Part shown: piece after piece, positions 2,270 through 20,127 of the stretch
Layout: each line of letters begins with the position of its first letter
Position numbering within the stretch: the first letter of the stretch is position 1
Assembly: GCF_027924665.1 (NCBI RefSeq)
Contig: NZ_AP027043.1
Span: 4,030,001 to 4,094,000 of the forward strand
DNA: 64,000 bases
Origin: Flavobacterium sp. GSB-24
GTDB lineage: Bacteria > Bacteroidota > Bacteroidia > Flavobacteriales > Flavobacteriaceae
Direction: 5' to 3'
Notes under the pieces: model-generated
Seen by the model: only the letters and a program-made list of their open reading frames with translations
Told to the model about the DNA's origin: nothing
Database searches by the model: none
Program-made: the position numbers and the translations under genes

Positions 2270-2280
2270 TTTTTTAATAA

Positions 2281-4657: not shown

Positions 4658-4699
4658 TTTGTCATTTCGATCCCGAAGCCTCGGGATCGAAATGACAAA
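4658..4699. repeat. Perfect 19-bp inverted repeat between glycosylasparaginase and GH20
   Basis: The arms at 4658-4676 and 4681-4699 are perfectly complementary around a 4-nt loop (agcc). The outer part (ttgtcatttcga) is the same terminal sequence as the ~100-bp palindromes elsewhere in the window, and the inner part (tcccga/tcggga) matches the right end of the copy at 30002-30113. It is a short member of that repeat family. Located between two same-strand operon genes, it could act as a processing or attenuation hairpin; that role is inferred. Confidence 0.8.
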
Positions 4700-4730
4700 T
4701 ATTGTGTTTAATCTCTTTAACGGATTAATA

Positions 4731-5753
4731 TTATTTATCCCAAGCCATTTTAAATTTCGCGTCTTCCATTCTGTGGCCTTTTACGTCATCAGAAACGGCG
4801 TAATTGAATCCTGATCTTAAACTGTAACCCGCATATTCTCCGTTTTTATTCAAAGCAATAAAACCAACTTGCAGGTATTCCATGTCTTTGTGGTTTTTAT
4901 GTTTGTTATAAATACGTTCTGTAATTTCTTTACAAGCATCGTAAGGCGATTTTCCCTGACGCATTAGTTCTACAACCATTGCACTTCCTGCAGTTCTAAT
5001 TACGGCTTCGCCTAAACCAGTTGCTGCGGCCGCTCCTACTTCGTTATCCAAGAAAAGACCCGCGCCGATTATTGGGGAGTCACCGACGCGTCCGTGCATT
5101 TTCCAAGCTGCACCGCTCGTGGTACATCCGCCCGAAAGATTGCCTTCTTGGTCTAACATTAGCATACTGATGGTATCGTGATTTTCTATATTAATAACTG
5201 GTTTGTATTTAGAATCTTCCAGCCATTTTTTCCAGTCTTTTTCAGATTCTGGAGTCAATAAATTTTCTTCTTTAAAGCCTTCAGACAAGGCAAATTGTAA
5301 CGCACCCTGCCCAGCTAACATTACGTGAGGCGTATTTTGCAATACTCTTTTTGCAACAGAAATTGGATGCATAATTCCTTGCAGAAAACAAACAGAACCG
5401 CAATTGCTATTGTGATCCATAATGCAGGCATCAAGAGTAACTTTTCCTTCACGGTCTGGATATCCTCCGTAACCTACGCTGCGGACAGTCGGATCTGCTT
5501 CAGGTATTTTCATTCCAGCTTCGATGGCATCTAAAGCTGATTTTCCTTCTTTTAAATTCTTCCAAGATTCTTTATTAGCAGGCAGACCATGATTCCATGT
5601 CGAGATGATGATCGGTTTAGTCTGTTTTTTTTCTTTTAATTCAGCTTCTGGTTCATTTTCGTGATTTGCAGCAAATCCGCTTACGCCCAAAACAGAACTT
5701 ATGGCTAAAGTGCCTAACGTTGTTTTCTTGATAAAATCTCTTCTATTTGACAT
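4731..5753 (-). CDS. N4-(beta-N-acetylglucosaminyl)-L-asparaginase (glycosylasparaginase)
   Basis: A 340-residue Ntn-hydrolase of the isoaspartyl peptidase/asparaginase family. It cleaves the GlcNAc-Asn amide bond left when an N-glycoprotein is degraded. The autocatalytic site is visible as NHDTISMLMLD with Thr194 as the new N-terminal nucleophile, followed by GGCTTSGAAWKMHGRVGDSP and GAGLFLDNEVGAAAATGLGE, which are classic for the glycosylasparaginase branch. The N-terminus reads MSNRRDFIKKTTLGTLAIS, a twin-arginine-like signal, so export in folded form is possible. It follows the GHL10-like gene by 90 bp and precedes GH20. Its presence is the main reason to read this operon as Asn-linked glycan catabolism rather than free mannan use. 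Length and key residues look normal. Confidence 0.93.
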   Translation of the reverse strand: MSNRRDFIKKTTLGTLAISSVLGVSGFAANHENEPEAELKEKKQTKPIIISTWNHGLPANKESWKNLKEGKSALDAIEAGMKIPEADPTVRSVGYGGYPDREGKVTLDACIMDHNSNCGSVCFLQGIMHPISVAKRVLQNTPHVMLAGQGALQFALSEGFKEENLLTPESEKDWKKWLEDSKYKPVINIENHDTISMLMLDQEGNLSGGCTTSGAAWKMHGRVGDSPIIGAGLFLDNEVGAAAATGLGEAVIRTAGSAMVVELMRQGKSPYDACKEITERIYNKHKNHKDMEYLQVGFIALNKNGEYAGYSLRSGFNYAVSDDVKGHRMEDAKFKMAWDK

Positions 5754-5843
5754 GTGGTTTATTTTTGGTTCAACTCTAAGAAACTAAGTTTTCTTAATGT
5801 TGCTAAATTAATCAGTAATAATTTTTAATCCCAGTAAAATCGA

Positions 5844-6962
5844 CTATAACGACGCTTTTACCGACTTAATTGTTTTTAAATTACTCTCTGATAAAGCATT
5901 TCCGTCAAAAAATGAAACTCCTGTTGCACCATTTTTCTTCGCTTCTAGAATCGCTTCTTTCAATTCTGCATCCGATTTTAAACCTGGAATATAAATTCCT
6001 GTATTTACTTTCGTTGGTTTTCCTTCAAGATCTGCTACACCTTGTTTGGTTGCATAACCTACCCAGTCAATTTCTTCATCATAAAAACTATGATAAATCA
6101 TTGGATAAACTTCGTCAATATTCCATTTATCCCAACGCTGGCGCACCATATGATCCGCCATTTCTGGATAAGGAAATACTGCTGCCGTTAATTTTTTATT
6201 GTATTTGTGAGCAATTTTGTATGCATCGTCAACCACAGCTTTTACCGCATTTAATCTGAAATTTTTCCACTCCATATCAATTGAAGTATTGTGGCTATTT
6301 TTTGGATTTTTATGATGTTCTTTTTCGAATTTACTTACGCAGGCATCACAATAACAGAAATCAAATTGTGGTAACTCTGTATCTTGAACCAAATTGTATT
6401 TTGGCAATAAACTGATTGGCAGGAAAATGTCTGGAAAACGAATGTAATCTAAATGTACACTTTCGATTCCTTCTACTTTTGCTAAACCTTCAACCAAGCC
6501 TAAAACGTGGTTTCTAGATTCTTCTTTAGTTGGGCAAAGCCATTGGTAATAATCTACATACGGACGATTATCAAAACAAGATTTTCCTTCTTTACTTACT
6601 TGATACCAATCTGGATGCTGTAACGCTATAGAATCATTTGGGCGGTTCATCGCCATGATCCAAGCGTGCACTTTTAGTCCTTCTTTTGTTGCAAGCGGAA
6701 CTAATCTTGCTAATAGTTTCGGATCTGTTTGCGTGTTAATTAAAACTTCATCGATTCCGCCGTCTTTGTATTTTTTGAATTCTTTCGAATAATCTGCATC
6801 CGATTTTTTAGCGTCAGCAGTAGTCCAAACACCAAAAGTGAATTTACCATTTTCCTGATCTTTGGTTTCTTTTTGTCCGCAAGAGAATAAACTCAGCGAT
6901 AGCGCTAATACTAAAACTTTTGATAGTTTTTGCAACTTACTCGTTCGTAATAATTTTACCAT
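5844..6962 (-). CDS. GHL10-like (family-10-like glycosyl hydrolase) lipoprotein
   Basis: A 372-residue lipoprotein with a hydrophobic leader and lipobox LFSCGQ (Cys28). The rest reads as a TIM barrel of the GHL10/DUF187-type superfamily. Strands carry GGIDEVLINTQ, KVHAWIMAMN and the hallmark VEGIESVHLDYIRFPD, then DEVYPMIYHSFYDEEIDW. Family activity is poorly defined. The DYIRFP strand usually places an acidic residue in the pocket. A CDAC-type pair (FCYCDACVSKF) may bind metal or form a disulfide. The start at 6962 overlaps the 3' end of the CBM9-like gene by 26 bp, and no later Met exists before the lipobox, so this start is firm and suggests translational coupling. Its job in N-glycan breakdown is unknown; core cleavage or handling of GlcNAc-Asn peptides is conjecture. 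Confidence 0.75.
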   Translation of the reverse strand: MVKLLRTSKLQKLSKVLVLALSLSLFSCGQKETKDQENGKFTFGVWTTADAKKSDADYSKEFKKYKDGGIDEVLINTQTDPKLLARLVPLATKEGLKVHAWIMAMNRPNDSIALQHPDWYQVSKEGKSCFDNRPYVDYYQWLCPTKEESRNHVLGLVEGLAKVEGIESVHLDYIRFPDIFLPISLLPKYNLVQDTELPQFDFCYCDACVSKFEKEHHKNPKNSHNTSIDMEWKNFRLNAVKAVVDDAYKIAHKYNKKLTAAVFPYPEMADHMVRQRWDKWNIDEVYPMIYHSFYDEEIDWVGYATKQGVADLEGKPTKVNTGIYIPGLKSDAELKEAILEAKKNGATGVSFFDGNALSESNLKTIKSVKASL

Positions 6963-8004
6963 CTTCTTTAATTATTAAGGTTTTGTTTGAAAAAGGACTC
7001 TTTACCAAGATATTAAATCCTGATGAATGATTTTCTAAAATTGGCTTTAAAGTCTTTCCGTCAACCACTATATTTTTTTTACTGATACTTTGCAGTGATT
7101 TTGCCCAAGATTTATTCTTTTCGAAATATCTTTTTTGAGCTCTGTATAAAGTATACAGTTCCCATTTTACTTTTTCTTCCTGCGGAATTACAAATTTGTC
7201 TTCGCTTTCTTTTGAAGAAAAGTATACATAAGCCCATTTTTCGGGCTCATGCATATTAATGACTCCCATAGGCGACCAAACCCAATTGTATTCTGGGAGA
7301 AACTTTCCTTCTGTATCTTTTTTTCGTTCGTACTTTCCGTCAACAACAGAATGCTGCCAATTTACTCGAGAGAAATTGACTTTCCAGAATTTATCTTTAG
7401 GAACAATATTATCGTGATAAGATGTTTTATAAACCGACCATGGAATGGCAATTTCTAATGTCCAGCCTTTATCAATATCTGATGAATTATTTAAAGTTCC
7501 ATCTACTTTTACAGCCGATTTTAAACCATCGATATTCCAGTCGTTTAAAACCGTATTTTTTTCGCGGTAGGGTTTATTGATAAATAAATCCCAAGCGGTG
7601 TTTAATGCATTTATTTCCAATTCATAATAATTTTGAGTATCATTATCTGGATCAATAAAAACCTCAAAATCATTATTATAGAAAATAATAGTATCGCGTT
7701 GTCTAAGATTTGCCCAAACATGCTGCTCTTCCATCTTAGCTAGAATATAGTAGTAATTATCGTCCCAGAGCATTTTAACCTGAGTTTTGTATTTTGGAGT
7801 TTCAACACCTTCTATGTCGACAAAAGGTGTTGTCCAAGCTGCTTTTTCCCAAGCTTTATCTGCTTCATCGCCGTCAATAACAATTTCTTTTGACGTTTTA
7901 TACGCAATATAACTTTTTGGTGTAACCTCTTTTTCAGATTGCGAATACCCTATCAAACCAACAAAAAAAACGGCAAGGGACAATAATTTACCTCTACTAT
8001 GCAT
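6937..8004 (-). CDS. Secreted CBM9-like carbohydrate-binding protein
   Basis: A 355-residue protein with a short signal peptide (MHSRGKLLSLAVFFVGLIGYSQ). Residues 30-235 match the CBM9-like/DOMON beta-sandwich seen in many Bacteroidota proteins: EIVIDGDEADKAWEKAAWT at the start, then WDDNYYYILAKMEE, FYNNDFEVFIDPDNDTQNYY, EINALNTAWDLF, GWTLEIAIPW and a late FSRVNWQH. The C-terminal ~100 residues are Lys-rich and unassigned. No catalytic motif is apparent, so it is likely a sugar- or glycopeptide-binding accessory. It ends inside the start of the GHL10-like gene (26-bp overlap) and begins 7 bp after the GH130 stop, so the two unknowns are probably partners. Confidence 0.75.
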   Translation of the reverse strand: MHSRGKLLSLAVFFVGLIGYSQSEKEVTPKSYIAYKTSKEIVIDGDEADKAWEKAAWTTPFVDIEGVETPKYKTQVKMLWDDNYYYILAKMEEQHVWANLRQRDTIIFYNNDFEVFIDPDNDTQNYYELEINALNTAWDLFINKPYREKNTVLNDWNIDGLKSAVKVDGTLNNSSDIDKGWTLEIAIPWSVYKTSYHDNIVPKDKFWKVNFSRVNWQHSVVDGKYERKKDTEGKFLPEYNWVWSPMGVINMHEPEKWAYVYFSSKESEDKFVIPQEEKVKWELYTLYRAQKRYFEKNKSWAKSLQSISKKNIVVDGKTLKPILENHSSGFNILVKSPFSNKTLIIKEDGKIITNE

Positions 8005-8011
8005 CTTTATA

Positions 8012-8977
8012 TTATAAACTATTATCTTTTGTAAACTGAATTACTTCACTTAATTTTCCGAAGGCGATCGCTACATGAGTATCTGCAGCACCGTAATAAA
8101 CTGCTAATTTATCTTCTTCAAAATCGTGTAAAGCAGCACATGGGAAAACTACATTTGGTACATCTCCAACCATTTCATACGTTTCTGCAGGTCCTAATAA
8201 ATACGGCTGTGTTCTGTATTTTACTTGATCTGGCGCGTCTGTTTCTAATAATGCTGAACCCATTGCATAACGGAAACCGTTGCAGGTATTGATAACTCCG
8301 TGGTAGATCATTAACCATCCTTCGTCAGTTAAAATCGGAATTGGTCCTGCACCTACTTTTGTACATTGCCACGCACTTTTCTCAAATGGAGATGGTTTCA
8401 TCACTAATCTGTGTTCTCCCCAATATTTCATATCTGGGCTATAGCTAATCCAGATATCTCCAAATGGTGTGTGTCCGTTATCACTTGGACGGCTTAACAT
8501 GGCGTATTTTCCGTTGATTTTTTGCGGGAATAAAACTCCGTTTCTGTTGAATGGTAAAAAAGCATTTTCGCATTGGAAAAATTCTTCAAAATCAAAAGTA
8601 TAACCAATACCGATTGTTGGTCCGTTATAACCATTACACCAAGTAATCCAGTAACGATCTTCGATCCAAACCACACGAGGATCATATTTATAAGCAGATT
8701 CGATCATTTCTGTATTTCCAGATTTCATCTCAATTGGTTCGTGGTTGATGTCCCAATTGATACCATCTTTACTGAAACCAGCAAAAATATTCATCTGAAC
8801 TGCTTTATTATCACATCTAAAAACCCCAGCATATCCGTCTCCAAAAGGTACAACTGCACTATTGAATATACTGTTTGAAGAAGGAATCGAATATCTGTCG
8901 ATAATTGGATTCTCAGAATATCTCCACATTACATCTTTACTGTTTTCGGGTCTGTCTTGCCAAGGAATAGTACTCAT
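8012..8977 (-). CDS. GH130 beta-mannoside phosphorylase, cytoplasmic
   Basis: A 321-residue five-bladed-propeller GH130 protein without a signal peptide, so it should act in the cytoplasm. Family motifs are visible: [20 protein letters not shown], then [18 protein letters not shown] with the catalytic acid candidate Asp99, [15 protein letters not shown] and the phosphate-side segment around [15 protein letters not shown]130 enzymes phosphorolyse beta-1,4-mannosides. The N-glycan branch converts Man-beta-1,4-GlcNAc to mannose-1-phosphate and GlcNAc. That specificity is inferred from the glycosylasparaginase, GH92 and transporter neighbours and would need an assay against mannan-oligosaccharide activities. 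It is directly upstream of the CBM9-like gene and downstream of the symporter gene. Confidence 0.9.
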
Positions 8978-9056
8978 TTTTTGTTTTTTTTTTATTTATT
9001 AGTTTTTTTTATTCTTTTGTCTCTGACTTTTTTTTTGGCAACTATAACGTTCGGTT

Positions 9057-9160
9057 TTGTCATTTCGACGAAGGAGAAATCTCCGCAAGAAGCTCCATCT
9101 CGTAAGTTACCAATCTTTGTAGAGTTACTCGTGGAGATTTCTCGTTCCTCGAAATGACAA
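9057..9160 (+). repeat. ~100-bp palindromic repeat, family A (copy 1)
   Basis: Terminal arms at 9057-9084 and 9133-9160 pair with two mismatches. The outer edge is ttgtcatttcgacgaagga and the interior contains caatctttgt, which sets the orientation as plus. Four further copies occur in this window (30002, 40217, 52145, 57136). A short reading frame across it is a product of the repeat, not a gene. It lies downstream of the symporter gene. Confidence 0.85.
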
Positions 9161-9173
9161 ACTGCATCGCAAA

Positions 9174-9204
9174 ACTTTGTCAAAGTTTTGAACTTTGACA
9201 AAGT
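9174..9204 (-). terminator. Hairpin downstream of the symporter gene
   Basis: The arms actttgtcaaagtt (9174-9187) and its complement (9191-9204) form a perfect 14-bp stem with a 3-nt loop, starting 14 nt after the symporter stop. No long T-run follows, so it may be an attenuator or mRNA 3'-end stabiliser within the operon rather than a strong terminator. Confidence 0.6.
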
Positions 9205-9217
9205 AGCAACACTTAAT

Positions 9218-11095
9218 TTACTCTTCTATCTTCCTAACTCGATCCAGCCAAGTAAACTTCAATACCGTAGTCGTTACTAAAAAGACAACTAAAGCAACAC
9301 AAGCTTTTGGATAATCTCTGATGATGAAATAAATCGGAAGCAGAATCATGCTTGACTGCCATACAATTCCGATCACACAATTCATCATATCTAGATAGAA
9401 ATCATTATTTTTTTGGAAAGATTGATCTTCCGCTTTTAATTGTTTGTAAACTGGATTCCAAAATCCCCAAGGTCTAACATTACTGTAGAAAGATTTCAGC
9501 ACTTCCATATCTGTTGGTTTGCTTAAATATGTTCCTAAAAGACAACCTAATATAGAAAATCCGAAAATTAACGGGAATAAGTAAATCGATGGCACTTGCG
9601 AAAGTTGATGTAATAACGTTCCGTCTCCAAAATTTCCTTTATTCTGATCCAAAACAAATTGAAGCGAAGCTGCAACAAGTCCTCCGACCATTCCCCAGAA
9701 ATAACCCCATCCGTTGAAACGCCACCAAATCCATTTTAAGAAGTTCGCAGCAACGTAACCTCCGTACAAAGCACTTGTAATCCACAGCGTTAAAGAGTTG
9801 ATAGAATCTGCAAAGAATCCCATGAAAACTCCAAGTCCAACAACTAAGAAAGAAGAAATCTGACTTACTTTAATATAATGTGCATTTGATGCAACTGGTT
9901 TGAAGTATTTTTTATAAATATCATTTACAATATAAGCAGGACCTGCGTTTACGAAAGCTGAGAATCCAGACATAAAAGCAGCTAATAAACCTGCTAAAAG
10001 AATTCCTTTAATTCCAACTGGAATATAAAGATTCACCACTTTTGGCATTAATAATTCTAAGTCTGCTCCGGTAAGGTTAACATTTGCATTTAATTCTGGT
10101 GCTAAATTCACCAATGCAATAACTACAATTCCTGTGATTAATAAATATCTCGGAATAAATAGAATCAAGTTGGTGAAACCACTCATGTAAGCGGCTTCTT
10201 TTACTGATTTAGTAGAAAGAACACGCTGTAAATCGTAACTTGGTGTTGGACCTGCGACACTTGCAAAAAATCCTTTGAAAAGCGTCATTCCGATAAATGC
10301 ACCAAACATTTTGTAACCTTCTGTATCAATTAATCTGTTGAAAGTTTCGAATTTATCGCCCCATTGTGTTTCAAATTCCCATCCGAAGAAAACATTTTTC
10401 CATTCTGGAGTAATTACAGAATTGATTTGAATATCAGTATAATTAATGAATGCGTAACCTGCGATTAGAACTCCGGCAACAATCATAATAATATATTGCA
10501 CGACTTCTGTTGCTACTACTGAAAACATTCCACCTTTTACGGTATAAATGGTAGTTAAAAAAATGATTAACAAAGCATAAGCCTGTTCTGATGTTAAGAA
10601 AACACCACCGTTTATGTGAACTGTTAAATCCCAAGGAAGAATAATGGTTACAAATTTTCCGATTCCAACGAAGAAATAAGCGATGAAACCAATTGTAGAA
10701 ATAATAGCAAAAATGGCCACAATAATATGAGAAGCTTTTCCTGCTTTGTCACTTCCAAAACGAGTTAAAATCCATTCAGAACCCGTCATTACTTTCGATC
10801 TTCTAATCCAGACTGCGAGGAACATCATGACGAAAATCTGATTCCAAATCGGCCAAAGCCACATAAACATGAAACTTTTTACGCCATATAAAAATAAAAC
10901 TCCAATCATCCAGGAAGTTCCTGAAACATCAAACATTCCTGAGCCATTGCTCAATCCTAAAAAATACCATTTGATTGATTTCCCGCCAAGGAAATAATCG
11001 TCAAGCCCTTTTGATGCTTTTCTTGAAATCCAGATTCCTATACCGACCGACATTACGATATAGATTAAAATGATTGATACGTCTATAATGTTCAT
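9218..11095 (-). CDS. Sodium:solute symporter (SSS family)
   Basis: A 625-residue polytopic inner-membrane protein with about 13-14 hydrophobic helices. Helix 1 is at the very N-terminus (MNIIDVSIILIYIVMSVGIG), as is usual for SSS/LeuT-fold symporters. The segment DDYFLGGKSIKWYFLGLSNG and the later GLLAAFMSGFSAFVNAGPAY match the sodium-site regions of the family. It likely imports the sugar released outside, probably Man-GlcNAc or a monosaccharide, for the adjacent cytoplasmic GH130. It follows the GH92 stop by 17 bp, so the two are co-transcribed. The substrate cannot be read from sequence. Confidence 0.9.
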   Translation of the reverse strand: MNIIDVSIILIYIVMSVGIGIWISRKASKGLDDYFLGGKSIKWYFLGLSNGSGMFDVSGTSWMIGVLFLYGVKSFMFMWLWPIWNQIFVMMFLAVWIRRSKVMTGSEWILTRFGSDKAGKASHIIVAIFAIISTIGFIAYFFVGIGKFVTIILPWDLTVHINGGVFLTSEQAYALLIIFLTTIYTVKGGMFSVVATEVVQYIIMIVAGVLIAGYAFINYTDIQINSVITPEWKNVFFGWEFETQWGDKFETFNRLIDTEGYKMFGAFIGMTLFKGFFASVAGPTPSYDLQRVLSTKSVKEAAYMSGFTNLILFIPRYLLITGIVVIALVNLAPELNANVNLTGADLELLMPKVVNLYIPVGIKGILLAGLLAAFMSGFSAFVNAGPAYIVNDIYKKYFKPVASNAHYIKVSQISSFLVVGLGVFMGFFADSINSLTLWITSALYGGYVAANFLKWIWWRFNGWGYFWGMVGGLVAASLQFVLDQNKGNFGDGTLLHQLSQVPSIYLFPLIFGFSILGCLLGTYLSKPTDMEVLKSFYSNVRPWGFWNPVYKQLKAEDQSFQKNNDFYLDMMNCVIGIVWQSSMILLPIYFIIRDYPKACVALVVFLVTTTVLKFTWLDRVRKIEE

Positions 11096-11112: not shown

Positions 11113-13353
11113 TTAGTTAGTCAAACCCCAGTTTTTGTTTGGCTCCGCTCCCATTGTAAAATGAAGCACACCGCCTTGCAGCATTTCTTGGTGAGAGATT
11201 GCTGTTTTATTAAATGCTTTTCCGTTTAAAGTAGCCGATTGGATATAGAAATTTTTGTTTGAAACATTTTCTGCTTCAATTACAAAAGTTTTTCCATTTG
11301 GAAGATTTAAAGTTGATTTCTCGAAAATCGGACTTCCAATTTCGTACTCTCCAGAAGCTGGATTCATTGGATATAACCCCATTGAACTGAATACATACCA
11401 AGCCGACATTTGTCCGCAGTCTTCGTTTCCGCTTAGACCATTTGCAGTCGTATTATATTGTGTGTCCAAAATATGGCGAACCCAATATTGCGTTCTCCAA
11501 GGCTGACCTGCGTGATTAAACATATAAGCAATGTGGTGGCTTGGCTCGTTACCGTGCGCATACTGCCCGATCAAACCAGAAATATCTGCAGAAACATTGT
11601 TTCCAGTAATCTCAGAACTTTCTGTAAATAATTGTTCTAATCGTTTTGTGAAAGTGGCATTTCCGCCATGAAGCTTAATAAAATTGTCAACATTATGAGG
11701 TACAAACCAGCTGTGCTGCCAAGCATTTCCTTCTGTATAATCAGTATGTTCCCTGTGGTTAGAGTGTTTTGGGTCGAAAGGCTCGTTCCAAGATTTTCCA
11801 TCTTCCGATTTTCCTCTCATAAAACCAGATTTGGCATCAAATAAATATTCGTAAGCTTTTGCACGTTTAGAGAAAAACTCATAATCAGCTTGTTTTCCTA
11901 GAGCTTTCGCCATTTGCGCTACACACCAATCATCATAAGCATATTCTAAAGTAATGGTAACTGATTCGTCTAATAAATTATAAGGGATGTAACCGTATTT
12001 TTTGTAGAAGTTTAAACCGCGTTCGTCCTGCATCATTGTGGCTTTCATGGCTTCAAATGCTTTTTCAGCATCAAAACCTTTAATACCTTTCATATAAGCA
12101 TCTGCAATAACTGGAATAGAGTGATATCCTGTCATTGTATTGGTTTCATTAGCATACAAAGTCCAAACTGGCAATATTTTTTTGGTTTCGTAATACGCTA
12201 ACATTGAGTTAACCATATCTGAAACTCTGTTTGGATCTAATATTGTAAGTAACGGATTCTCTGCTCTAAAGGTATCCCAAAGCGATAAAGTAGAATAAGC
12301 GGTATAATTTTTTGAAGTAACAATTTTGTCGTCTTCAGTTCTAAACTGTCCATTTTTGTCGCTGTACGTAACTGGCGCAACTTGAGCGTGATACAAAGCG
12401 GTGTAGAAAATAGTTTTTAAAGAATCAACCGGAGTTTCTACAGAAATTTTGCTTAAAGCTTTATTCCAAACTGCAGAAGCATCTGTTTTTACCTTTTCAA
12501 ATTCCTGATCTTTATCTAAATTGTTTTTCGCATTTGCAATACTAACTGAAGAAAGTGCCACTTTTACACCTAATTCTTTAGAATTTTTAGGATCGAAGAA
12601 TAATTGCAAAGCTGTATTTTCACCTTCTGCATTTTTAGCATTAACAACTTTTTTATCAGCAGTAATAATAGATTCTGTGATTGGTTTTGAAAATTTAGCC
12701 ACAAAAAATACTTTCTGATTTTTTGCCCAGCCTGTACTGTAACGGAAACCGCTGATGGTATTGGCATCTTCAATTGTAATAGAAGTTTTTACTGCTTTGT
12801 CCCAATTAATAGCGAAACCAAGATCTACAATAACTGATTGTGTATTGGTATCATTAAAAGTATATTTATGGTATGCGGTTCTTTGCGTAGACGTTAATTC
12901 TACATTGATTTTAGGATCTTCAAGAAAAACTTGGTAATAACCCGGTACTGCTTTTTCGTTAACATGATTATATTTTGATTTATACGGAAGGAAATCGCGT
13001 GAAGCGGCTTTGGCGGTTAAGTCTAACTTTTTGTTTGTCGGCATAAATAAAATATCTGCCAAATCACCGATTCCTGTTCCGCTTAAGTGTAAGTGACTAA
13101 ATCCAGAAACTATAGAGTCAGAATAATGATAACCTGAGCACCAGTCCCAGCTAGAAACCCCATTATCTGGACTCACTTGCAGCATCCCAAATGGAACTGT
13201 CGCGCCTGGATACGTATGTCCGTGACCGCCAGTACCTATAAAAGGATCTACATAATTTGCTGCAAAACTTTGCTGATGTTTATTTTTATCTACATTTATT
13301 TTGCAACTTGCAGTAAAAATTACCGTCAGAGAAAGCAGAGTAATTTTCCTCAT
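11113..13353 (-). CDS. GH92 exo-alpha-mannosidase lipoprotein
   Basis: A 746-residue lipoprotein (lipobox FTASC, Cys17). The N-terminal beta-sandwich carries the GH92 signature DPFIGTGGHGHTYPG-TVPFGM and SPDNG. The C-terminal (alpha/alpha)6 barrel carries GNEDCGQMSAWYVFSSMG, where Glu644 is the candidate general acid. GH92 enzymes are calcium-dependent inverting exo-alpha-mannosidases acting on alpha-1,2, 1,3, 1,4 or 1,6 links of high-mannose N-glycans or yeast mannan; this sequence does not settle the linkage. It is the first gene of the minus-strand operon and shares a divergent promoter region with the histidine kinase. The length is normal. Confidence 0.95.
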   Translation of the reverse strand: MRKITLLSLTVIFTASCKINVDKNKHQQSFAANYVDPFIGTGGHGHTYPGATVPFGMLQVSPDNGVSSWDWCSGYHYSDSIVSGFSHLHLSGTGIGDLADILFMPTNKKLDLTAKAASRDFLPYKSKYNHVNEKAVPGYYQVFLEDPKINVELTSTQRTAYHKYTFNDTNTQSVIVDLGFAINWDKAVKTSITIEDANTISGFRYSTGWAKNQKVFFVAKFSKPITESIITADKKVVNAKNAEGENTALQLFFDPKNSKELGVKVALSSVSIANAKNNLDKDQEFEKVKTDASAVWNKALSKISVETPVDSLKTIFYTALYHAQVAPVTYSDKNGQFRTEDDKIVTSKNYTAYSTLSLWDTFRAENPLLTILDPNRVSDMVNSMLAYYETKKILPVWTLYANETNTMTGYHSIPVIADAYMKGIKGFDAEKAFEAMKATMMQDERGLNFYKKYGYIPYNLLDESVTITLEYAYDDWCVAQMAKALGKQADYEFFSKRAKAYEYLFDAKSGFMRGKSEDGKSWNEPFDPKHSNHREHTDYTEGNAWQHSWFVPHNVDNFIKLHGGNATFTKRLEQLFTESSEITGNNVSADISGLIGQYAHGNEPSHHIAYMFNHAGQPWRTQYWVRHILDTQYNTTANGLSGNEDCGQMSAWYVFSSMGLYPMNPASGEYEIGSPIFEKSTLNLPNGKTFVIEAENVSNKNFYIQSATLNGKAFNKTAISHQEMLQGGVLHFTMGAEPNKNWGLTN

Positions 13354-13377: not shown

Positions 13378-13426
13378 TAAATTTAGATAAATTCAACTTT
13401 TACCAAAATAAATTTAGACGGACGAC
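13378..13426 (-). promoter_or_regulatory. Candidate operator plus -7 box upstream of the GH92 operon
   Basis: On the minus strand, GTCGTCCGTCTAAATT (13411-13426) is followed after 25 bp by TAAATTTA (13378-13385), 24 bp before the GH92 ATG. Near-identical arrangements precede the NagB-LmbE gene and the GH29 gene at 17.7 kb. The box resembles the Bacteroidota -7 consensus TAnnTTTG except for its last base, and no clear -33 element is visible, which fits activator dependence. The neighbouring LytTR regulator is the obvious candidate; that link is inference. Confidence 0.55.
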
Positions 13427-13471
13427 ATTTAAACAGCTCTAAACATCAAAAAAAAGCAACAAACGACATTT
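13418..13471. promoter_or_regulatory. Two direct repeats 41 bp apart in the divergent GH92/kinase promoter
   Basis: The sequence ac(g/a)(g/a)acgacattt occurs at 13418-13430 and 13459-13471 in the same orientation, 41 bp apart or about four helical turns. LytTR proteins commonly bind paired direct repeats on one face of the helix. The inner copy overlaps the operator candidate at 13411-13426. The outer copy lies 13 bp before the kinase ATG, so autoregulation is possible. Confidence 0.45.
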
Positions 13472-13483
13472 TAAATTACCACT

Positions 13484-14542
13484 ATGATTTTCAACTCAAG
13501 CAAGCTTTACACTTTACCTATACGCTATCATGTTTACTTTTGGCTCACATATTTTTTGTTCAATACACTGCGCTGGGGAAGCTATTTTAACGATTACGTA
13601 TATTCTTTAAAAACTACTTTACTTGGTTTTCCTATTCACATGGCATTATGTTATCTGAATATTTTGGTTTTGATGCCTCATTTGGTCTATCGTAAAAAAT
13701 ATGTCCTATATATTATAACAGTACTTTCGGCAATTTTTGTCATGGTTGTTCTAAAATTTAATTTGACTTATTTGCTGATTACGCATGACGTTTGGCCAGA
13801 AGGTCCGCAAACCATCAATACACTTACGCTAAATTATACGATAGACATGATGATGGGCGAATTATATGTGATGACTTTTGTAACAGCTATTAAAATCACG
13901 CTCGATCTTTTACAAGAACAAAAACGTGTCACCGATCTGGAAAAATCGCAGCTGGAAACAGAATTATTATTTTTAAAATCTCAGATTTCACCTCACTTTT
14001 TCTTTAATACCTTGAATAATATTTATTCGCTTTCTGTAGAAAAATCAAACAAAACGCCTAAGATAGTTTTAAAGCTTTCTGAATTAATGCGTTACATGCT
14101 TTATGAAACAAAAGAAAAAAAACAGTCATTAGAGAACGAAATTCTATGTATTCAAAATTATCTTGATTTAGAGAGAATTAGAAACGGAGAAAGACTAGAA
14201 GTTAATATGTACATTTCAGGAGATATACATGATAAAGAAATTTCACCCGTTCTATTATTGACTTTTGTTGAAAATGCTTTTAAACATGGCGTTAATAAAA
14301 ATACCGGAAATGTTGTTATCGATATTAATTTTAAGGTAAAAGGCGATTTCTTATACTTCAGTATTTCAAACCCAATGCCCGAAATTACCGTACATAAAGA
14401 TAATTTTAACAAGGCAAGTGGTATAGGTATTGAAAACGTCAAAAAAAGACTTGAATTAGGATATAATAAAAGTGACTATAAGCTTTCATTTAAAAATAAA
14501 AAGAATATTTTTGTCGTTAAACTAGTCATAAAAGTCACGTAG
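13484..14542 (+). CDS. LytS/YehU-type sensor histidine kinase
   Basis: A 352-residue inner-membrane kinase with four predicted transmembrane helices in residues 15-145, and no large extracytoplasmic sensor domain. A short coiled coil (145-165) leads to the His_kinase domain. The phospho-acceptor His171 sits in LKSQISPHFFFNTLNNI, the typical LytS/YehU motif, and the ATPase N-box follows at LLLTFVENAFKHGV with GIGIENVKKRLEL. It should phosphorylate the LytTR regulator encoded 69 bp downstream. It is divergent from the GH92 operon, and the shared intergenic region carries repeated candidate operator sites. A membrane-embedded sensor suggests it responds to a transported sugar or membrane partner, but the signal is unknown. 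Confidence 0.93.
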   Translation: MIFNSSKLYTLPIRYHVYFWLTYFLFNTLRWGSYFNDYVYSLKTTLLGFPIHMALCYLNILVLMPHLVYRKKYVLYIITVLSAIFVMVVLKFNLTYLLITHDVWPEGPQTINTLTLNYTIDMMMGELYVMTFVTAIKITLDLLQEQKRVTDLEKSQLETELLFLKSQISPHFFFNTLNNIYSLSVEKSNKTPKIVLKLSELMRYMLYETKEKKQSLENEILCIQNYLDLERIRNGERLEVNMYISGDIHDKEISPVLLLTFVENAFKHGVNKNTGNVVIDINFKVKGDFLYFSISNPMPEITVHKDNFNKASGIGIENVKKRLELGYNKSDYKLSFKNKKNIFVVKLVIKVT

Positions 14543-14611
14543 CCTCGCTTTTAGCTATTTCGAAAACTATACCTACAAAAAAACCATATCGGCCTAAAAT
14601 AATATTTACAA

Positions 14612-15325
14612 ATGAAAATAAAGTGTTTAATTATCGATGATGAGCCATTGGCAATAAACGTTATTAAAAGTTATATTGAACAGATTGAAGATTTAGAACT
14701 CATTAATACCTTTAGTAATTCTATTGAAGGGTTAAATTTCTTGAAAAACAATACTATTGATGTAATTTTTCTTGACATTAATATGCCTGTGTTAGACGGT
14801 ATAAATTTTATCAAAAGTTTAGAAAACCCGCCTCTGCTTATTATCACGAGCGCTTACGATCAATTTGCAATTGAAACTTACGAGCTGGATGTTTTAGATT
14901 ATCTGGTAAAACCAATTGAGTTTCCTAGATTAATGAAAGCCGTAAACAAAATCAACAAACGACTTAATAATACCAGTAAAATTCCTCAGGAAAATAGTAA
15001 AGAAAACCCTTTCATCTTCGTTAAAATCGACAAGAAAAAAATGAAGAAGATTTTCTTGAACGAAATTTTGGTCATCGAAAGCTTAAAAGATTATTTAAAA
15101 ATAAGTACCTCTTCTGGCAAATTCATCATTCACAGCACTTTATCAGATTTTACGAGTTTATTACCTGAAAGAGATTTCATAAGAATCCACAGATCTTACA
15201 CGATCGCAATTGATAAAATTGATGCTGTAGAAGGAAATAGCATTGAAATTGAAGGACTTAGATACGTTATTGGAAGATCTTATATTGATGAAGTAAAGCA
15301 GAAAATTTTGAATTCTTCCATTTAG
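14612..15325 (+). CDS. LytR/AlgR-family response regulator (receiver + LytTR)
   Basis: A 237-residue two-domain regulator. The receiver domain occupies residues 1-120 with the acidic pair IDDEP at 8-12, phospho-acceptor Asp55 in FLDINMPVLDG, Thr in ITSAYD and Lys in YLVKP. A linker leads to a C-terminal LytTR DNA-binding domain (about 132-232), with FIRIHRSYTIAIDKIDAVEG and YVIGRSYIDEVKQKIL near its end. It is encoded with its cognate kinase and most likely controls the divergent GH92 operon, and by the shared motif also the NagB-LmbE and GH29 genes. LytTR regulators are unusual for glycan loci of this phylum, where hybrid two-component systems, SusR and ECF sigma/anti-sigma pairs are commoner. 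Confidence 0.93.
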   Translation: MKIKCLIIDDEPLAINVIKSYIEQIEDLELINTFSNSIEGLNFLKNNTIDVIFLDINMPVLDGINFIKSLENPPLLIITSAYDQFAIETYELDVLDYLVKPIEFPRLMKAVNKINKRLNNTSKIPQENSKENPFIFVKIDKKKMKKIFLNEILVIESLKDYLKISTSSGKFIIHSTLSDFTSLLPERDFIRIHRSYTIAIDKIDAVEGNSIEIEGLRYVIGRSYIDEVKQKILNSSI

Positions 15326-15331
15326 GGTTTT

Positions 15332-15511
15332 ACCGCAAAGGCGCAAAGATTTACGCAAAGTTCGCTAAGTTTTTTTTAGTTTATATTTTAAAAAAGGATT
15401 ATAAAAAAGTTCGCAAAGCTTAAAGAATAAGCTTTGCGAACTTTTTTATCTATTTTCATCTAGAAAAAAACCCTTTGTGAGCTTTGCGTAAATCTTTGCG
15501 CTCTTTGCGGT
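15332..15511. repeat. Long outer inverted repeat around the 15.4 kb terminator
   Basis: The segment accgcaaaggcgcaaagatt onward (15332-15360) is inversely repeated at 15482-15511 with one small bulge. The two arms enclose the strong hairpin at 15403-15447. Short reiterations such as cgcggttaaaaaa follow at 15509-15550. The 346-bp gap 15326-15671 contains no gene. Confidence 0.75.
15403..15447. terminator. Bidirectional intrinsic terminator between convergent genes
   Basis: A perfect 20-bp stem (15403-15422 with 15428-15447) and a 5-nt loop (aagaa), with A-tract on the left and T-tract on the right. It can therefore end transcription from the response regulator on the plus strand and from the NagB-LmbE gene on the minus strand. 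It is the strongest terminator in the window. Confidence 0.9.
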
Positions 15512-15671
15512 TAAAAAAACTTCGCGGTTAAAAAAAACTCTGCAGTAAAAAAACACAAAACGAGTAAAAAACGAAAATGCGGCCAACCACGACCGCATTT
15601 TCTCTCAATTATAGGTAACTAACCAAAATAAACCATGAAATAGTCTATTATCTTTATTGCTGGAAAAATCC

Positions 15672-17600
15672 TTAGAAATGATAACGTTTAAACGCTTCGA
15701 TAGCCGAATAATCTGCTAATCCTAAGTTGTGATATTTTTCTGCAGTCAATCTATTTCTGTCTTCAACTCGCACCCAAAACTCCCTGCTGTCATCACCTTG
15801 AAACATAACTCCGTCTTTTTGAGACTGGTGATAAAAAATCGCATGTCGTTTCTTTAAAACCTGGTCAGGACTCATTGGTACTGCCATGTCAATTTGGTAC
15901 GATTCCCATTCATGCCATGCGCCTCTGTAAAGCCAAACCCAGCAGTCGTCCATAAAACTTTTGTGTTTTAATCTTTTTAAAGCTTCAAACAAACTGTCTA
16001 AACAAACTTTATGAGTTCCGTGCGGATCTGCTAAATCTCCGGCGGCATAAATTTGATGCGGTTTTATTCTTTCAATAATATCACACATAATGTCGATATC
16101 TGTATCCGAAAGATTATTCTTTTTCACTGTTCCTGTTTCGTAAAACGGAAGATCTAAAAAGTTAACATTAGAATCTGGCAAACCAATGTAACGAGTTGCT
16201 CCAAAAGATTCACTTCTTCTAATTAATCCTTTTAATTTTCTAACCTCAGGAGAATCAATTTCATTTCCGGTTCTGTTTTGAAGGAAATCAATAATTTCAT
16301 CTGAAACAGTAGAATTTGGATTTAATGCTTTTGAAATTTCTGCAAATTTTAAAGCTTCTTCATTCGAAACCGCGATATTTCCAGAAGTCTGATACGCAAT
16401 ATGAACTTCATGCCCCTGCTCTACCAAACGGTCAAATGTTCCTCCCATCGAAATCACATCATCATCCGGATGCGGACTAAAAATAATTACTCTTTTCTTT
16501 TCAGGAGTTGAACGTTCTGGTCTATAGGTATCATCTGCATTTGGTTTTCCTCCCGGCCATCCTGTAATGGTTTGCTGCATTTTATTAAACATCTTAATGT
16601 TCAAATCGTATGCAGTTCCTTCTTCCGTCAAAAGACTCGACATTCCGTTGTCGTTATAGTCTTTATCAGTTAGTTTTAGGAAAGGTTTCTTCGTCAACTC
16701 ACTTAACCATGCCACCGCTTTTAATTTTAATTCATCTGTCCAAACACAAGACTTAACCAGCCAAGGCGTTTTTACCCTTGTAAGTTCAGATGAAGCTTCT
16801 GTATCTAGAACAAATGTTGTGTTGTTATGCTCTTGTAAATACGTAGCCGGCACTTGCGAAGAAACCTCGCCTTCAATTGTATTTTTTATAATTCCTGCTT
16901 TACTAATTCCCCATCCTAGTAAAACGATTCTTTTTGCATTTCTAACGGTTCCAATTCCCATTGTAATGGCTTTTCTGGGAACATTGTCAATTCCTAAAAA
17001 AGAAGAGGCCGCATCGACACGTGTCAAATGATCCAAAGTAATACTTCTGGTTCCAGAGTTTACATGCGAACCTGGTTCATTAAAACCAATATGTCCTGTT
17101 CTGCCGATTCCTAAAAGCTGAAAATCTAAACCGCCGTACGATTTAATTTTCATCTCATAATCAATACAATATTGTTGTAATTCCTCAGCACTAACCTGTC
17201 CGTCTGGAATATTGATATTTTCTGGAAGAATATTAACGTGATGAAACAAATGCTCGTGCATAAAATGATAATAACTCTGAATATCATTTTTATCCATCGG
17301 ATAATATTCATCTAAATTGAAGGTCACTACGTTTGCAAAACTCAGTCCTTCTTCTTTATGTTTTCTTACAAGCTCTTCGTAAACTTTTATTGGAGAAGAT
17401 CCTGTAGCTAAACCTAAAACACAAGGTTCGTTTAGTTCATTTTTTCTCTGAATTAAATTGGCAATTTCCTGCGCGACCAATAAAGAAGCTTCCTGCGACG
17501 ATTCGAAAATAACATTATGAATTTTCTCAAAACGAGTTTCTTCAAATTTTCCTGCTTCCGTAAATCCAATATCTTCTTTAATCATATCGCTGTCGCTCAT
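15672..17600 (-). CDS. nagB: Glucosamine-6-phosphate deaminase (NagB) fused to LmbE/PIG-L deacetylase-like domain
   Basis: A 642-residue cytoplasmic fusion. Residues 25-290 are NagB: GLATGSSPIKVYEELV, catalytic FNLDEYYPM (Asp97) and GIGRTGHIGFNEPGS (164-178, containing the catalytic His). They convert glucosamine-6-phosphate to fructose-6-phosphate and ammonia. Residues 368-600 are LmbE/PIG-L-like: FSPHPDDDVISMGG (HPDD at 377-380, a zinc motif of GlcNAc de-N-acetylases) and a later AGDLADPHGTHK. The deacetylase partner could make the amino-sugar substrate, but its activity is not established. The arrangement is known in Bacteroidota. It starts at 17600, after a candidate operator shared with GH92, and ends before the bidirectional terminator. 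Amino sugar from N-glycans would be funnelled here. Confidence 0.93.
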   Translation of the reverse strand: MSDSDMIKEDIGFTEAGKFEETRFEKIHNVIFESSQEASLLVAQEIANLIQRKNELNEPCVLGLATGSSPIKVYEELVRKHKEEGLSFANVVTFNLDEYYPMDKNDIQSYYHFMHEHLFHHVNILPENINIPDGQVSAEELQQYCIDYEMKIKSYGGLDFQLLGIGRTGHIGFNEPGSHVNSGTRSITLDHLTRVDAASSFLGIDNVPRKAITMGIGTVRNAKRIVLLGWGISKAGIIKNTIEGEVSSQVPATYLQEHNNTTFVLDTEASSELTRVKTPWLVKSCVWTDELKLKAVAWLSELTKKPFLKLTDKDYNDNGMSSLLTEEGTAYDLNIKMFNKMQQTITGWPGGKPNADDTYRPERSTPEKKRVIIFSPHPDDDVISMGGTFDRLVEQGHEVHIAYQTSGNIAVSNEEALKFAEISKALNPNSTVSDEIIDFLQNRTGNEIDSPEVRKLKGLIRRSESFGATRYIGLPDSNVNFLDLPFYETGTVKKNNLSDTDIDIMCDIIERIKPHQIYAAGDLADPHGTHKVCLDSLFEALKRLKHKSFMDDCWVWLYRGAWHEWESYQIDMAVPMSPDQVLKKRHAIFYHQSQKDGVMFQGDDSREFWVRVEDRNRLTAEKYHNLGLADYSAIEAFKRYHF

Positions 17601-17615
17601 TTAATTAATGTAAGA

Positions 17616-17664
17616 TAAAAGTAGAATTAAATAGTCCGTTAGAACTAAAATTTCGACTAATAAC
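17616..17664 (-). promoter_or_regulatory. Candidate operator plus -7 box upstream of NagB-LmbE gene
   Basis: On the minus strand GTTATTAGTCGAAATT (17649-17664) is followed after 25 bp by TACTTTTA (17616-17623), 15 bp before the ATG. The 16-mer differs from the GH29 copy at two positions, and the spacing matches the GH92 copy exactly. An AGTCG half-site is repeated 10 bp upstream within the same element. Confidence 0.55.
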
Positions 17665-17729
17665 GACTATCGTTCGGCAGAAAACAAAATAGCAAACTTC
17701 AAGTAGTTTTTAAGGAGCAGAAAAAGCCT

Positions 17730-19823
17730 TTATTCGATGATGCTGATTTCGGCAATCGAAACACTTTGCGCTTTTCCTATGCCAGCTGTCGCCACAAATC
17801 TTAAAAATCTTGCTTTAACTGCAGCAAAACTCTTAAATTGTTCAATTGGGTTGTGTTTGATATTTGAAAATTCTCCTTCCGATTGTTTAGTCCACGTAAT
17901 ATTGTCTTCGCTGGTATAAAATTCATAATTCGAAATTAAATTCAAATTATTTCCAACCTGCTGTGGTATATACGTAAAGCCTTTTATTTCTATTAATTCA
18001 CCCATGTCAATAATCACAGATTGAGGCAGTTTATTTTCATCATTTCCAAAACCCCAATCGGTATTGGCATCGCCATCAATAATTTTTTCAACAGTTTTAG
18101 TGTCACCGCTTGAAACCGAAATCACTTTCCATTTTTCTTTAGAAACACCGTATTTAGCCGTTTTAACAGCACTATTAATTTTTTCTTTAGTGTTTCTTGA
18201 AATGGCTTTAATTGTTACTGCTTTATTATAAGTAAAAGGAGTTTTGTATAAAGTGCTTTTTTCAGAAGGCATTTTCCCGTCTAAAGTATAGTAAACCGTA
18301 TTTCCATCTTCCGATTTAATCGTCACCAAGCCATTTTTATCACGAAGAATCTGCGGTTCTTTTACAAAAGTCGGCGCATTATAGGCTTCAATTGTATTAA
18401 TTACAAAGCCAGCTTTTGCATCTAAAATGTTAATTCTAAGCGCTGAAGCCGTCACACGGTCTAAACGTAAAATTCTTTTGTAACCAATTGTGGTTTCATT
18501 GGCAATTGTTTTCCATTGTCCGTTTACATTAACTTCTACAGAAAATGCTTTTACGCGCTGTCCTAATTTTATATATTCCTGAAGTAAAAGTCTATTGATT
18601 GCTATTGGCTTTTTAAACGTAAATTCAATCGAAGCCTGTTTGACTTTATCGTCTGTTGCCCAATACGTATTTTTATTTCCATCAATAACATTTTGAGGTC
18701 CGAAATTAGAATCGGTTCCTCTTGTGTTTGAAGCTTGAACTTTAGAACCAGCCAATAATTCTGTTTTGAAATCGGCTTTAATTGTTGCCACCAATTCTTT
18801 TAATCTTGCTTCATCATTTTCATGAACCAAACCGCGTTTGTCAACTGGAAGATTCAATAATAAAGTCGCATTTCGCCCAATTGATTCATAATAAATATCG
18901 ACCATTTCATCAAGCGAACGAACCTTATCGTCTTCCACAGAATGGTAAAACCATCCTGGGCGTATCGAAACATCGGCTTCGCCTGGAACCCATTTTTCTC
19001 CATCTTCATGTCCAGACATAAATTCGCTGTAATGTACTTTTCCAGCTAACTCATCTTTCTGACGTAATAACGACCAATTGGTTTTTCCTGCGCGCCCTTC
19101 TTCATTCCCAATCCATCTCGCTTCTGATGGTCCAACTCCCCAAACCAACGTTTTTGGAGCGATATCGTAAATCATTTTATAAGTTTCATCCCAATTATAG
19201 TAGGTAAGCGAATTGATTTTTCTGGTTTCATTTGCTCCTCCGTAATAACCGTCACCGCCATTTGCACCGTCAAACCACATTTCGAAAACATCTCCGTAAT
19301 TTGTCAATAATTCTTTTAATTGATTTCTAAAATACGTTATATATTCAGGTTTTCCGTATTGCGGATGATTTCTGTCCCATGGCGAAAGGTATAATCCTAG
19401 CTTTAAATCGTATTCTTTACAGGCTGCAGCCAATTCTTTTACCAAATCTCCTTTTCCGTTTTCCCAAGGAGAATTCTTAACCGACCGTTCTGTATAGGCT
19501 GATGGCCATAAACAAAAACCGTCGTGATGTTTGGCAACCAGAATAATTCCTTTCATTCCGGCTTCTTTTACCACGTGTGCCCACTGGCGAACATCCAATT
19601 GCGACGGATTAAAAAGCTCTGGCGATTCGTCTCCGTAACCCCATTCTTTATTGGTAAAAGTGTTTAATGAAAAGTGTACAAAAGCATAAAATTCCATTTC
19701 CTGCCAGTCGATTTGTTTTTGCGTCGGAAGCGGTCCAAAAGGCTTTGGAGCATTGGCCAATTCCTGACTCGAAACATTAGAAATTACACCAAAAAAACAT
19801 AACGAAAGGAATACTTTTTTCAT
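17730..19823 (-). CDS. GH29 alpha-L-fucosidase with C-terminal discoidin domains
   Basis: A 697-residue secreted protein (signal peptide to residue 20). The GH29 barrel spans about 30-345: WQEMEFYAFVHFSLNTFTNK, AKHHDGFCLWPSAYT and the nucleophile Asp185 in FEMWFDGANGG. The remainder holds a discoidin (F5/8) domain (about 360-480), a CHB_HEX_C-like repeat (VYYTLDGKMPSEKS) and a second discoidin-like domain to the end. The architecture resembles the GH29-B branch, which often prefers alpha-1,3/1,4-fucose next to galactose (Lewis-type); this assignment is inference. It is a stand-alone gene between NagB-LmbE and the small block at 20 kb and carries its own copy of the candidate operator. Lewis-a termini of plant N-glycans would be a sensible target. 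Confidence 0.92.
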   Translation of the reverse strand: MKKVFLSLCFFGVISNVSSQELANAPKPFGPLPTQKQIDWQEMEFYAFVHFSLNTFTNKEWGYGDESPELFNPSQLDVRQWAHVVKEAGMKGIILVAKHHDGFCLWPSAYTERSVKNSPWENGKGDLVKELAAACKEYDLKLGLYLSPWDRNHPQYGKPEYITYFRNQLKELLTNYGDVFEMWFDGANGGDGYYGGANETRKINSLTYYNWDETYKMIYDIAPKTLVWGVGPSEARWIGNEEGRAGKTNWSLLRQKDELAGKVHYSEFMSGHEDGEKWVPGEADVSIRPGWFYHSVEDDKVRSLDEMVDIYYESIGRNATLLLNLPVDKRGLVHENDEARLKELVATIKADFKTELLAGSKVQASNTRGTDSNFGPQNVIDGNKNTYWATDDKVKQASIEFTFKKPIAINRLLLQEYIKLGQRVKAFSVEVNVNGQWKTIANETTIGYKRILRLDRVTASALRINILDAKAGFVINTIEAYNAPTFVKEPQILRDKNGLVTIKSEDGNTVYYTLDGKMPSEKSTLYKTPFTYNKAVTIKAISRNTKEKINSAVKTAKYGVSKEKWKVISVSSGDTKTVEKIIDGDANTDWGFGNDENKLPQSVIIDMGELIEIKGFTYIPQQVGNNLNLISNYEFYTSEDNITWTKQSEGEFSNIKHNPIEQFKSFAAVKARFLRFVATAGIGKAQSVSIAEISIIE

Positions 19824-19856
19824 TTGCTGAATTGCTTTAAAATAATCTATAAAGCA

Positions 19857-19906
19857 TAAATGTAGTATAAATTGATTTTCTCATCTACAGAATTTCGACC
19901 AACAAC
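19857..19906 (-). promoter_or_regulatory. Candidate operator plus -7 box upstream of the GH29 gene
   Basis: On the minus strand GTTGTTGGTCGAAATT (19891-19906) is followed after 26 bp by TACATTTA (19857-19864), 33 bp before the fucosidase ATG. It is the third member of the set at 13.4 and 17.6 kb. The motif overlaps the last codons of the doubtful 80-codon frame at 19885-20127. Confidence 0.55.
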
Positions 19907-20127
19907 AAATTTAAAAGTGTTTTGGTTTTGAATGTATATTTAAAATATGATTTGACTTGAAAGAGTTTAATCTTCCATCTTAAAATAAAAATCAAAATAG
20001 CGGAAACAACAAACACAAGCAAAACAAACAATCTGTTTATCATTGCAATTGAAAAACCTAACTTTGTGGCATCTATAAATGGATACGAAAAAAAGTATAT
20101 GTACCATTGGTTAAAAGGCCAAAGCAC
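19885..20127 (-). CDS. Doubtful small membrane protein (80 aa)
   Basis: An 80-codon frame starting 9 bp after the YdeI-like stop. The product would have one or two hydrophobic segments (about 5-20 and 30-50) and a basic C-terminus. I recognise no family. In favour: operon-like spacing and a plausible transmembrane pattern. Against: very AT-rich content, a 3' end that overlaps the candidate GH29 operator at 19891-19906, and no visible motif. If it is not a gene, the 313-bp gap 19824-20136 holds only the GH29 promoter. Confidence 0.3.
   Translation of the reverse strand: MLWPFNQWYIYFFSYPFIDATKLGFSIAMINRLFVLLVFVVSAILIFILRWKIKLFQVKSYFKYTFKTKTLLNLLLVEIL

Follow-up and report, generated by a model that had tools for sequence, protein, structure and literature searches.

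The locus and its genes

The window analysed here is a stretch of 64,000 nucleotides from the genome of Flavobacterium sp. GSB-24 (C1:4030001-4094000; positions are counted from its first letter), and it holds a glycan locus that continues beyond its left edge. A 16-nucleotide sequence (16-mer) recurs there on the minus strand upstream of the genes for a GH92 enzyme, a NagB-LmbE fusion and a GH29 enzyme, and a LytS-type histidine kinase and a LytTR response regulator are encoded beside the first copy. An earlier note on this DNA had read the three copies as a shared operator-promoter module linking three transcription units, with the LytTR pair as their likely regulator. The module is borne out, with more members than had been proposed, and co-occurrence, regulator clade and operator geometry, all of them evidence from sequence, support the pair as its probable regulator.

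An N-glycan utilisation locus combines enzymes for mannose, N-acetylglucosamine (GlcNAc), galactose, fucose and the GlcNAc-Asn link with a SusC/D pair. The families encoded here cover this range: two GH92, GH130, GH20, GH35, two GH29, an asparaginase_2 protein that we take to be aspartylglucosaminidase-like, NagB-LmbE and SusC/D. Judged from these families, the enzyme set fits the stepwise breakdown of complex N-glycans as the predicted substrate. To the left of the window the same-strand run that starts at GH92 goes on with GH29, GH92 and GH3, and is followed by the SusC unit. The presence of a LytTR system beside the first site was correctly recognised in the earlier note: a PF06580 kinase gene, divergent from GH92, adjoins on the same strand the gene of a regulator with PF00072 and PF04397 domains. 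A sequence search of this regulator against solved structures matched its receiver part in the best 60 of 173 matches.

Table 1. Features of the proposed regulon in the window, with positions counted from its first letter.
Feature	Position	Strand	Remark
Promoter-proximal operator half-site of the GH92 unit, GTCGTCCGTCTAAATT	13411..13426	-	At most 1 mismatch before 71/71 orthologous GH92 genes
-7 box of the GH92 promoter, TAAATTTA	13378..13385	-	25 bp after the 16-mer, 24 bp before the start codon
Degenerate upstream direct-repeat half-site of GH92, GATGTTTAGAGCT	13435..13447	-	Offset 21 bp, 7/13 matches
Promoter-proximal operator half-site of NagB-LmbE, GTTATTAGTCGAAATT	17649..17664	-	At most 1 mismatch in 78/80 loci
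-7 box of the NagB-LmbE promoter, TACTTTTA	17616..17623	-	25 bp after the 16-mer, 15 bp before the start codon
Upstream direct-repeat half-site of NagB-LmbE, GTTTTCTGCCGAA	17673..17685	-	Offset 21 bp, 11/13 matches
Promoter-proximal operator half-site of GH29, GTTGTTGGTCGAAATT	19891..19906	-	At most 2 mismatches in 68/68 loci
-7 box of the GH29 promoter, TACATTTA	19857..19864	-	26 bp after the 16-mer, 33 bp before the start codon
Putative inverted partner half-site of GH29	19918..19930	+	11-bp spacer, weak here (7/13)
GH92, first gene of a long target unit	11113..13353	-	Family match
Rest of the GH92 unit within the window: SSF symporter, GH130, CBM9, GHL10-like, asparaginase_2, GH20, GH35	419..11095	-	Families; putative operon extent, from gene order
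LytS-type histidine kinase (PF06580), divergent from GH92	13484..14542	+	PF06580 84 bits, cut-off 25.2
LytTR response regulator (PF00072 and PF04397), proposed operator binder	14612..15325	+	Both domains above cut-off
NagB-LmbE fusion, target gene	15672..17600	-	Family match
GH29 alpha-L-fucosidase family gene, target gene	17730..19823	-	Family match

The start of NagB-LmbE may be at 17585 and not at 17600, as many homologues align from residue 6, a methionine; this would make the short leader after the box at 17616-17623 less extreme. A third NagB-LmbE copy (63% identity) is present in the genome at G000:C1:2594265-2596160.

A site shared by four promoters

The three 16-mers lie where they had been reported, each followed by a TAnnTTTA box after 25, 25 and 26 bp and at 15-33 bp before the start codon, and the two best copies do agree at 14 of 16 positions. 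The figure of about 12 matches given for the GH92 copy holds for the plain consensus (12) and fails for the degenerate one, which this copy fits at 15 of 16 positions. A fourth site was found at C1:4023750-4023765, about 6 kb to the left of the window, 25 bp before TAAATTTA and ahead of SusC/SusD; it is independent of the others, since the pattern had been built from the other three sites only. Because SusC/SusD carries this site, the module links four transcription units in this genome and not three, and in some species it includes a GH125 gene as well. With the motif and the box taken together there were exactly four matches in the 5.35 Mb genome, all in this locus (approximately 26 kb), against one for the backwards control. 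A second glycoside hydrolase (GH) cluster in the window (23815-52123), pectin/rhamnogalacturonan-like in content (GH2, two GH78, GH95, GH28 and BNR proteins), holds no copy of the operator within 2 mismatches.

The fixed distance to the box is a general property of the site. A gapped pattern that allowed a gap of 22-32 bp was matched in 25 of 101 genomes of the genus, 19 of them with three to five sites, and in each listed match the gap was 28 or 29; a recount over 80 orthologous loci with the same range gave 28 or 29 for all boxes but one, at 23. The single matches in genomes G041 and G092 (loci L140 and L134), which likewise show a gap of 28, have no glycan gene among the reading frames listed and were set aside as chance.

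Conservation in orthologous loci

Conservation upstream of orthologues had been set beforehand as a test of the module, and the module passed it. We used 80 loci with a NagB-LmbE orthologue, the best 80 of 461 relatives and mostly from Flavobacterium; a LytS-type kinase is present in 75 of them. The site precedes all 71 GH92 orthologues (47 exact, 24 with one mismatch), 78 of the 80 NagB-LmbE orthologues (73 exact, five with one mismatch) and all 68 GH29 orthologues (31 exact, 35 with one mismatch and two with two), the two NagB-LmbE misses, L108 and L109, having four mismatches each. The box TANNTTTA follows 25-26 bp downstream of the site in 68/71, 78/78 and 57/68 cases, respectively.

The genes behind the sites vary, and include GH92, SSF, CBM9, NagB-LmbE, GH29, SusC, a sulfatase and a PSCyt/PSD1 protein; the SusC proteins behind sites in relatives have only 22-50% identity to the SusC of this genome. 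The first gene behind the site in G096, at a distance of 377 bp, encodes an SSF symporter, and in G051 a GH29 gene about 106 kb away still carries the site. The PSCyt1/PSCyt2/PSD1 protein, of a planctomycete-type cytochrome family, lies at L229 7303-9645 behind an operator-like site near a LytTR pair, and a protein that looks similar by eye follows a site in L176. In L112 an MFS gene behind SusC/SusD (6490-7824) resembles NagP GlcNAc transporters, with a score below the cut-off of that model.

A predicted two-part operator

To look for a partner half-site, the 13-base core was compared with the flanking offsets of five site sets by plain match counts, in place of a log-odds profile in which zero counts prevailed. 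The highest-scoring arrangement was a direct copy 21 bp upstream in the family-wide set (48 sites from 30 loci, z 5.0), the NagB set (38 non-redundant sites, z 6.1, mean 10.45 of 13 matches) and the GH92 set (15 sites, z 3.2), and an inverted copy across an equal 11-nt spacer in the GH29 set (55 sites, z 4.2) and the SusC set (10 sites, z 3.1). At least nine of 13 matches were found at -21 in 14 of the 48 family sites; other offsets had on average 1.0 such site and at most six. In the genome of origin the partner is strong for NagB-LmbE (11/13) and for SusC (10, inverted).

LytTR sites are described as pairs of repeats of 9-11 nt, direct or inverse, with a spacing of 11-13 nt (PMC4847170, accessible text). 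By sequence, the best offset in each of the five sets, whether the direct one at -21 or the inverted one across 11 nt, has this geometry. The 16-mer represents the promoter-proximal part of a predicted two-part operator with the architecture published for LytTR regulators. The earlier note was thus right about the site and incomplete in taking the 16-mer for the whole operator.

Co-occurrence of site and regulator

Genomes were counted as bearing the regulator at E <= 1e-84 within the genus and E <= 1e-80 within the family, cut-offs that were chosen after viewing the score lists; G102 and G259 fall just below the family cut-off, and neither has a strict match to the site. Among the 101 genomes of the genus, the site is found in 23 of 23 regulator-bearing genomes and in 2 of the 78 others (Fisher p 9e-21, relatedness ignored). 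Among 249 genomes of the family, 33 of 38 regulator-bearing genomes have a strict match compared to 11 of 211 others (Fisher p 2e-26, again ignoring relatedness), and the backwards control gave 8 matches in all 249. A class-level search (E <= 1e-72) recovered the regulator in 3 of 295 genomes, all from the same genus.

LytTR relatives were sought in the 249 family genomes, and longer flanking loci were taken for L176-L235. In the 28 loci with regulators of 52.6-82.8% identity (L176-L183 and L216-L235), the site is present with at most one mismatch in 27, with 44 matches against 3 for the reversed pattern; in the 32 loci with regulators of 44.3-54.2% identity (L184-L215) it is present in 6, with 9 matches against 2. 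Splitting at 53% identity instead gives 26/28 versus 7/32 loci and 42 versus 11 matches (reversed, 3 and 2). A tree of 73 regulators resolves two clades (split support 100/99), and the 500 bp upstream of the kinase gene hold a site in 36 of 40 members of the clade of this regulator versus 5 of 33 in the other. Mapped on this tree, the site label changes 7 times, compared to a mean of 24 in shuffles. Residues S223/N223 and Y218/I218 of the regulator are clade-specific, and are offered as leads only. Near-identical sites, GTTATTAGTCTAAAATACTTAAC... before NANNTTTA, were seen in three genomes without the regulator (G106:C33:119813, G308:C1:2681256 and G339:C3:12282), the sister-clade regulators of which are close relatives on the tree.

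As linkage and relatedness both confound co-occurrence, we looked at cases in which a gene is separated from the regulator. Among 30 best-match NagB-LmbE loci, the site (at most two mismatches) is present in 8 of 9 regulator-bearing genomes versus 2 of 21 others; the exception, in G119, is a copy near the paralogous regulator of that genome, and the two sites in genomes without the regulator are those of G125 (exact) and G102 (two mismatches). In the genomes of L108 and L109 the site is absent, and the regulator is represented only by a 49% relative that belongs to the other clade. In the genome of L110 the regulator (75%) is on a different contig from NagB-LmbE and the site is retained. GH125 is found in 27 of the 101 genus genomes, with an exact site upstream in 4 of 19 that bear the regulator (G083, G042, G088 and G049; loci L275, L276, L277 and L279) and in 0 of 8 that do not; in G091 the upstream site has 2 mismatches. 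The genome studied here has its GH125 gene elsewhere, immediately after a GH92 gene and with no site before it.

Proposed regulation and alternative explanations

Beyond the observed sites, their spacing, two-part architecture, conservation, genome-wide confinement and co-occurrence with the regulator clade, we consider it highly probable that the whole locus forms one regulon, controlled by the LytS/LytTR pair that it encodes. The LytS kinase would sense a breakdown product of glycoprotein glycans, probably a GlcNAc-containing fragment, and phosphorylate the LytTR regulator, two molecules of which would bind the two-part operator at its strong proximal half, GTYRTYNGTCKAAWWT, and its weaker upstream half. 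The latter would be oriented as a direct repeat of 21-bp period in front of NagB-LmbE, GH92 and many family members, and as an inverted repeat across the same 11-bp spacer in front of GH29 and SusC. The proximal half-site stops 25-26 bp short of the -7 box, close to the position of a -33 element, so that the bound regulator may replace this element and recruit RNA polymerase; it would in this way activate SusC/SusD, the GH92 unit, NagB-LmbE and GH29 together.

Several results weigh against this proposal. The box TANNTTTA is not at the right place in 3 of 71 GH92 promoters (L105-L107) and in 11 of 68 GH29 promoters. In this genome the partner half-sites of GH92 and GH29 are weak (7/13 each), and the inverted partner position is not above background in the family set of 48 sites. 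Five of 38 regulator-bearing family genomes have no strict match, although four of these have a site with 0-1 mismatch and an unfitting box or core; matching sites occur in 11 of the 211 family genomes that lack the regulator, and in G125, where no close regulator is present, NagB-LmbE is preceded by an exact site. No exact site precedes GH125 in 15 of the 19 regulator-bearing genomes that have this gene. Finally, regulator and targets are mostly linked, so that co-inheritance explains part of the co-occurrence. This linkage and the 11 matching genomes without the regulator would also suit another transcription factor, either unlinked or the AraC-type gene at 20849-21769, that binds the shared site while the LytTR pair is merely resident. 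We consider this unlikely: the site adjoins the LytTR pair in many genera despite differing neighbour genes (SSF, CBM9 or SusC), the operator geometry is of LytTR type, and L110 keeps the site although the regulator is distant. The AraC gene near GH29 itself can be discarded as the binder, being present within the flanks taken in 5 of 80 loci, versus 75 of 80 for the LytTR pair.

Loose matching gave no enrichment either in the window (at most 2 mismatches, 3 matches versus 3.7 expected) or in the genome (215 versus 415 for the backwards pattern), which also counts against a regulon, and whole-window and whole-genome loose matches were dropped as evidence. The expectation that the motif would outscore random sequence is therefore true of the exact motif with its box and not of the loose motif; the signal emerges only with exact cores, fixed spacing and conservation. 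That loose matches are no commoner than in shuffles or the backwards pattern is what one would expect if the similarity were an artefact of picking three AT-rich promoters. The independent fourth site, the cross-genus conservation, the fixed spacing and the genome-wide confinement leave such a chance origin a negligible likelihood, and we take it as refuted. The fixed distance to the -7 box would also suit an extended promoter element for an alternative sigma factor, with no regulator site at all. This is very improbable, as the -7 box retains the TAnnTTTA form, a second half-site lies at 21 bp, the site tracks the LytTR clade and a variant motif occurs beside the sister regulator. A regulator that represses the units, or acts both ways, is rather unlikely: the site lies upstream of the -7 box at constant spacing, and the closest studied counterpart is positive. 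In F. johnsoniae, cells from which cusS and cusR had been deleted no longer grew on chitin and lacked ChiA (PMC5127042, accessible text). It is this paralogous precedent that makes activation by the LytTR pair likelier than repression.

Significance

The regulons of glycan loci in Flavobacteriaceae have mostly been guessed from gene neighbourhood. Here a compact operator can be read from the sequence, and it points to members beyond the locus, namely GH125 in four species and a relocated GH29; the co-occurring LytTR regulator very probably turns the whole locus on. Two sister regulators are told apart here by a handful of bases and residues, so that their specificity is directly testable.

Comparison with known systems

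The nearest paralogue of the regulator in this genome (C1:4705262, 47% identity; L213 and L273, G000:C1:4684000-4711000) lies in a locus with a 1583-aa GH18 ChiA-like protein, GH20, NagB-LmbE, SusD, SusC, a kinase, the LytTR regulator and an MFS gene. Variant sites, GTCGTTGGTTTAAATT and GTCGTTGGTATAAATT, stand beside it before the SusC and MFS genes, the former being one copy of a 21-bp tandem repeat, and other loci of the paralogue clade have sites such as GTCGTTTATATAATTT with a GTTGTC copy 21 bp upstream. This variant pattern is modestly enriched beside paralogues (12 of 32 loci with 19 matches, versus 7 loci with 9 matches reversed). Given these related sites, the two sister regulators seem to have the 5' half of the code in common and to differ in its 3' half, the motif being GTCGTTGGTWTAAATT or GTCGTTTATATAATTT for the chitin type and GTYRTYNGTCKAAWWT here.

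By gene content and order, the paralogue locus matches the chitin utilization locus of F. johnsoniae, and the paralogue would be CusR. Like the system described here, CusS/CusR (Fjoh_4563/4564) form a two-component pair whose genes lie in a glycan locus, together with those for SusC/D, GH20, NagB and an inner-membrane transporter (PMC5127042). The regulator here differs in belonging to a separate, well supported clade from the chitin-type paralogue, and its locus has a different enzyme set. The accessible main text of that paper describes no operator for CusS/CusR, nor does it contain the word LytTR. Elsewhere, the LytTR domain is listed among features enriched in Flavobacteriaceae (PMC7440613, accessible text), and a co-evolution study mentions a mutated LytTR regulator to which its accessible text gives no known role and which is not tied to the present system (PMC10197871). 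Among the matches listed from a largely open literature, we found no published operator for such a regulator and no LytTR regulon of a Bacteroidota glycan locus; combining N-glycan, Flavobacterium and LytTR gave no match, and neither did LytTR with Bacteroidetes, binding site and glycan. LytTR control of an N-glycan locus had been called not well described; this stands as far as the operator is concerned, and has to be qualified by the genetic precedent of CusS/CusR for a flavobacterial glycan locus.

We regard as evenly balanced a broader proposition, namely that Flavobacteriaceae use a LytTR cis-code at their glycan loci. The LytS/LytTR pair would have been duplicated, with one copy serving glycoprotein glycans and the other chitin, and each copy would read a two-part operator of 21-bp period close upstream of the promoter. 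The two codes would have the GTYRTY half in common and differ in the 3' half, and the code would be portable to GH125, a relocated GH29, SSF and unrelated SusC genes in particular species.

More distant counterparts share parts of this arrangement. The best NCBIfam score of the regulator is to BtsR, at 122.9 bits against a cut-off of 246, and we do not class it as a BtsR equivalog. YpdA/YpdB of Escherichia coli is not known to control a glycan-locus regulon. As in the system here, it is a LytS/LytTR pair acting at a promoter (yhjX) with a direct repeat, one site of high and one of low affinity; it differs in its repeat, GGCATTTCAT (PMC4847170). The separate LytS kinase and LytTR regulator set the present locus apart from the glycan loci of Bacteroides. 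There, SusR, hybrid two-component and extracytoplasmic function (ECF) sigma regulators are likewise locus-specific activators of SusC/D and enzymes, with other DNA-binding domains.

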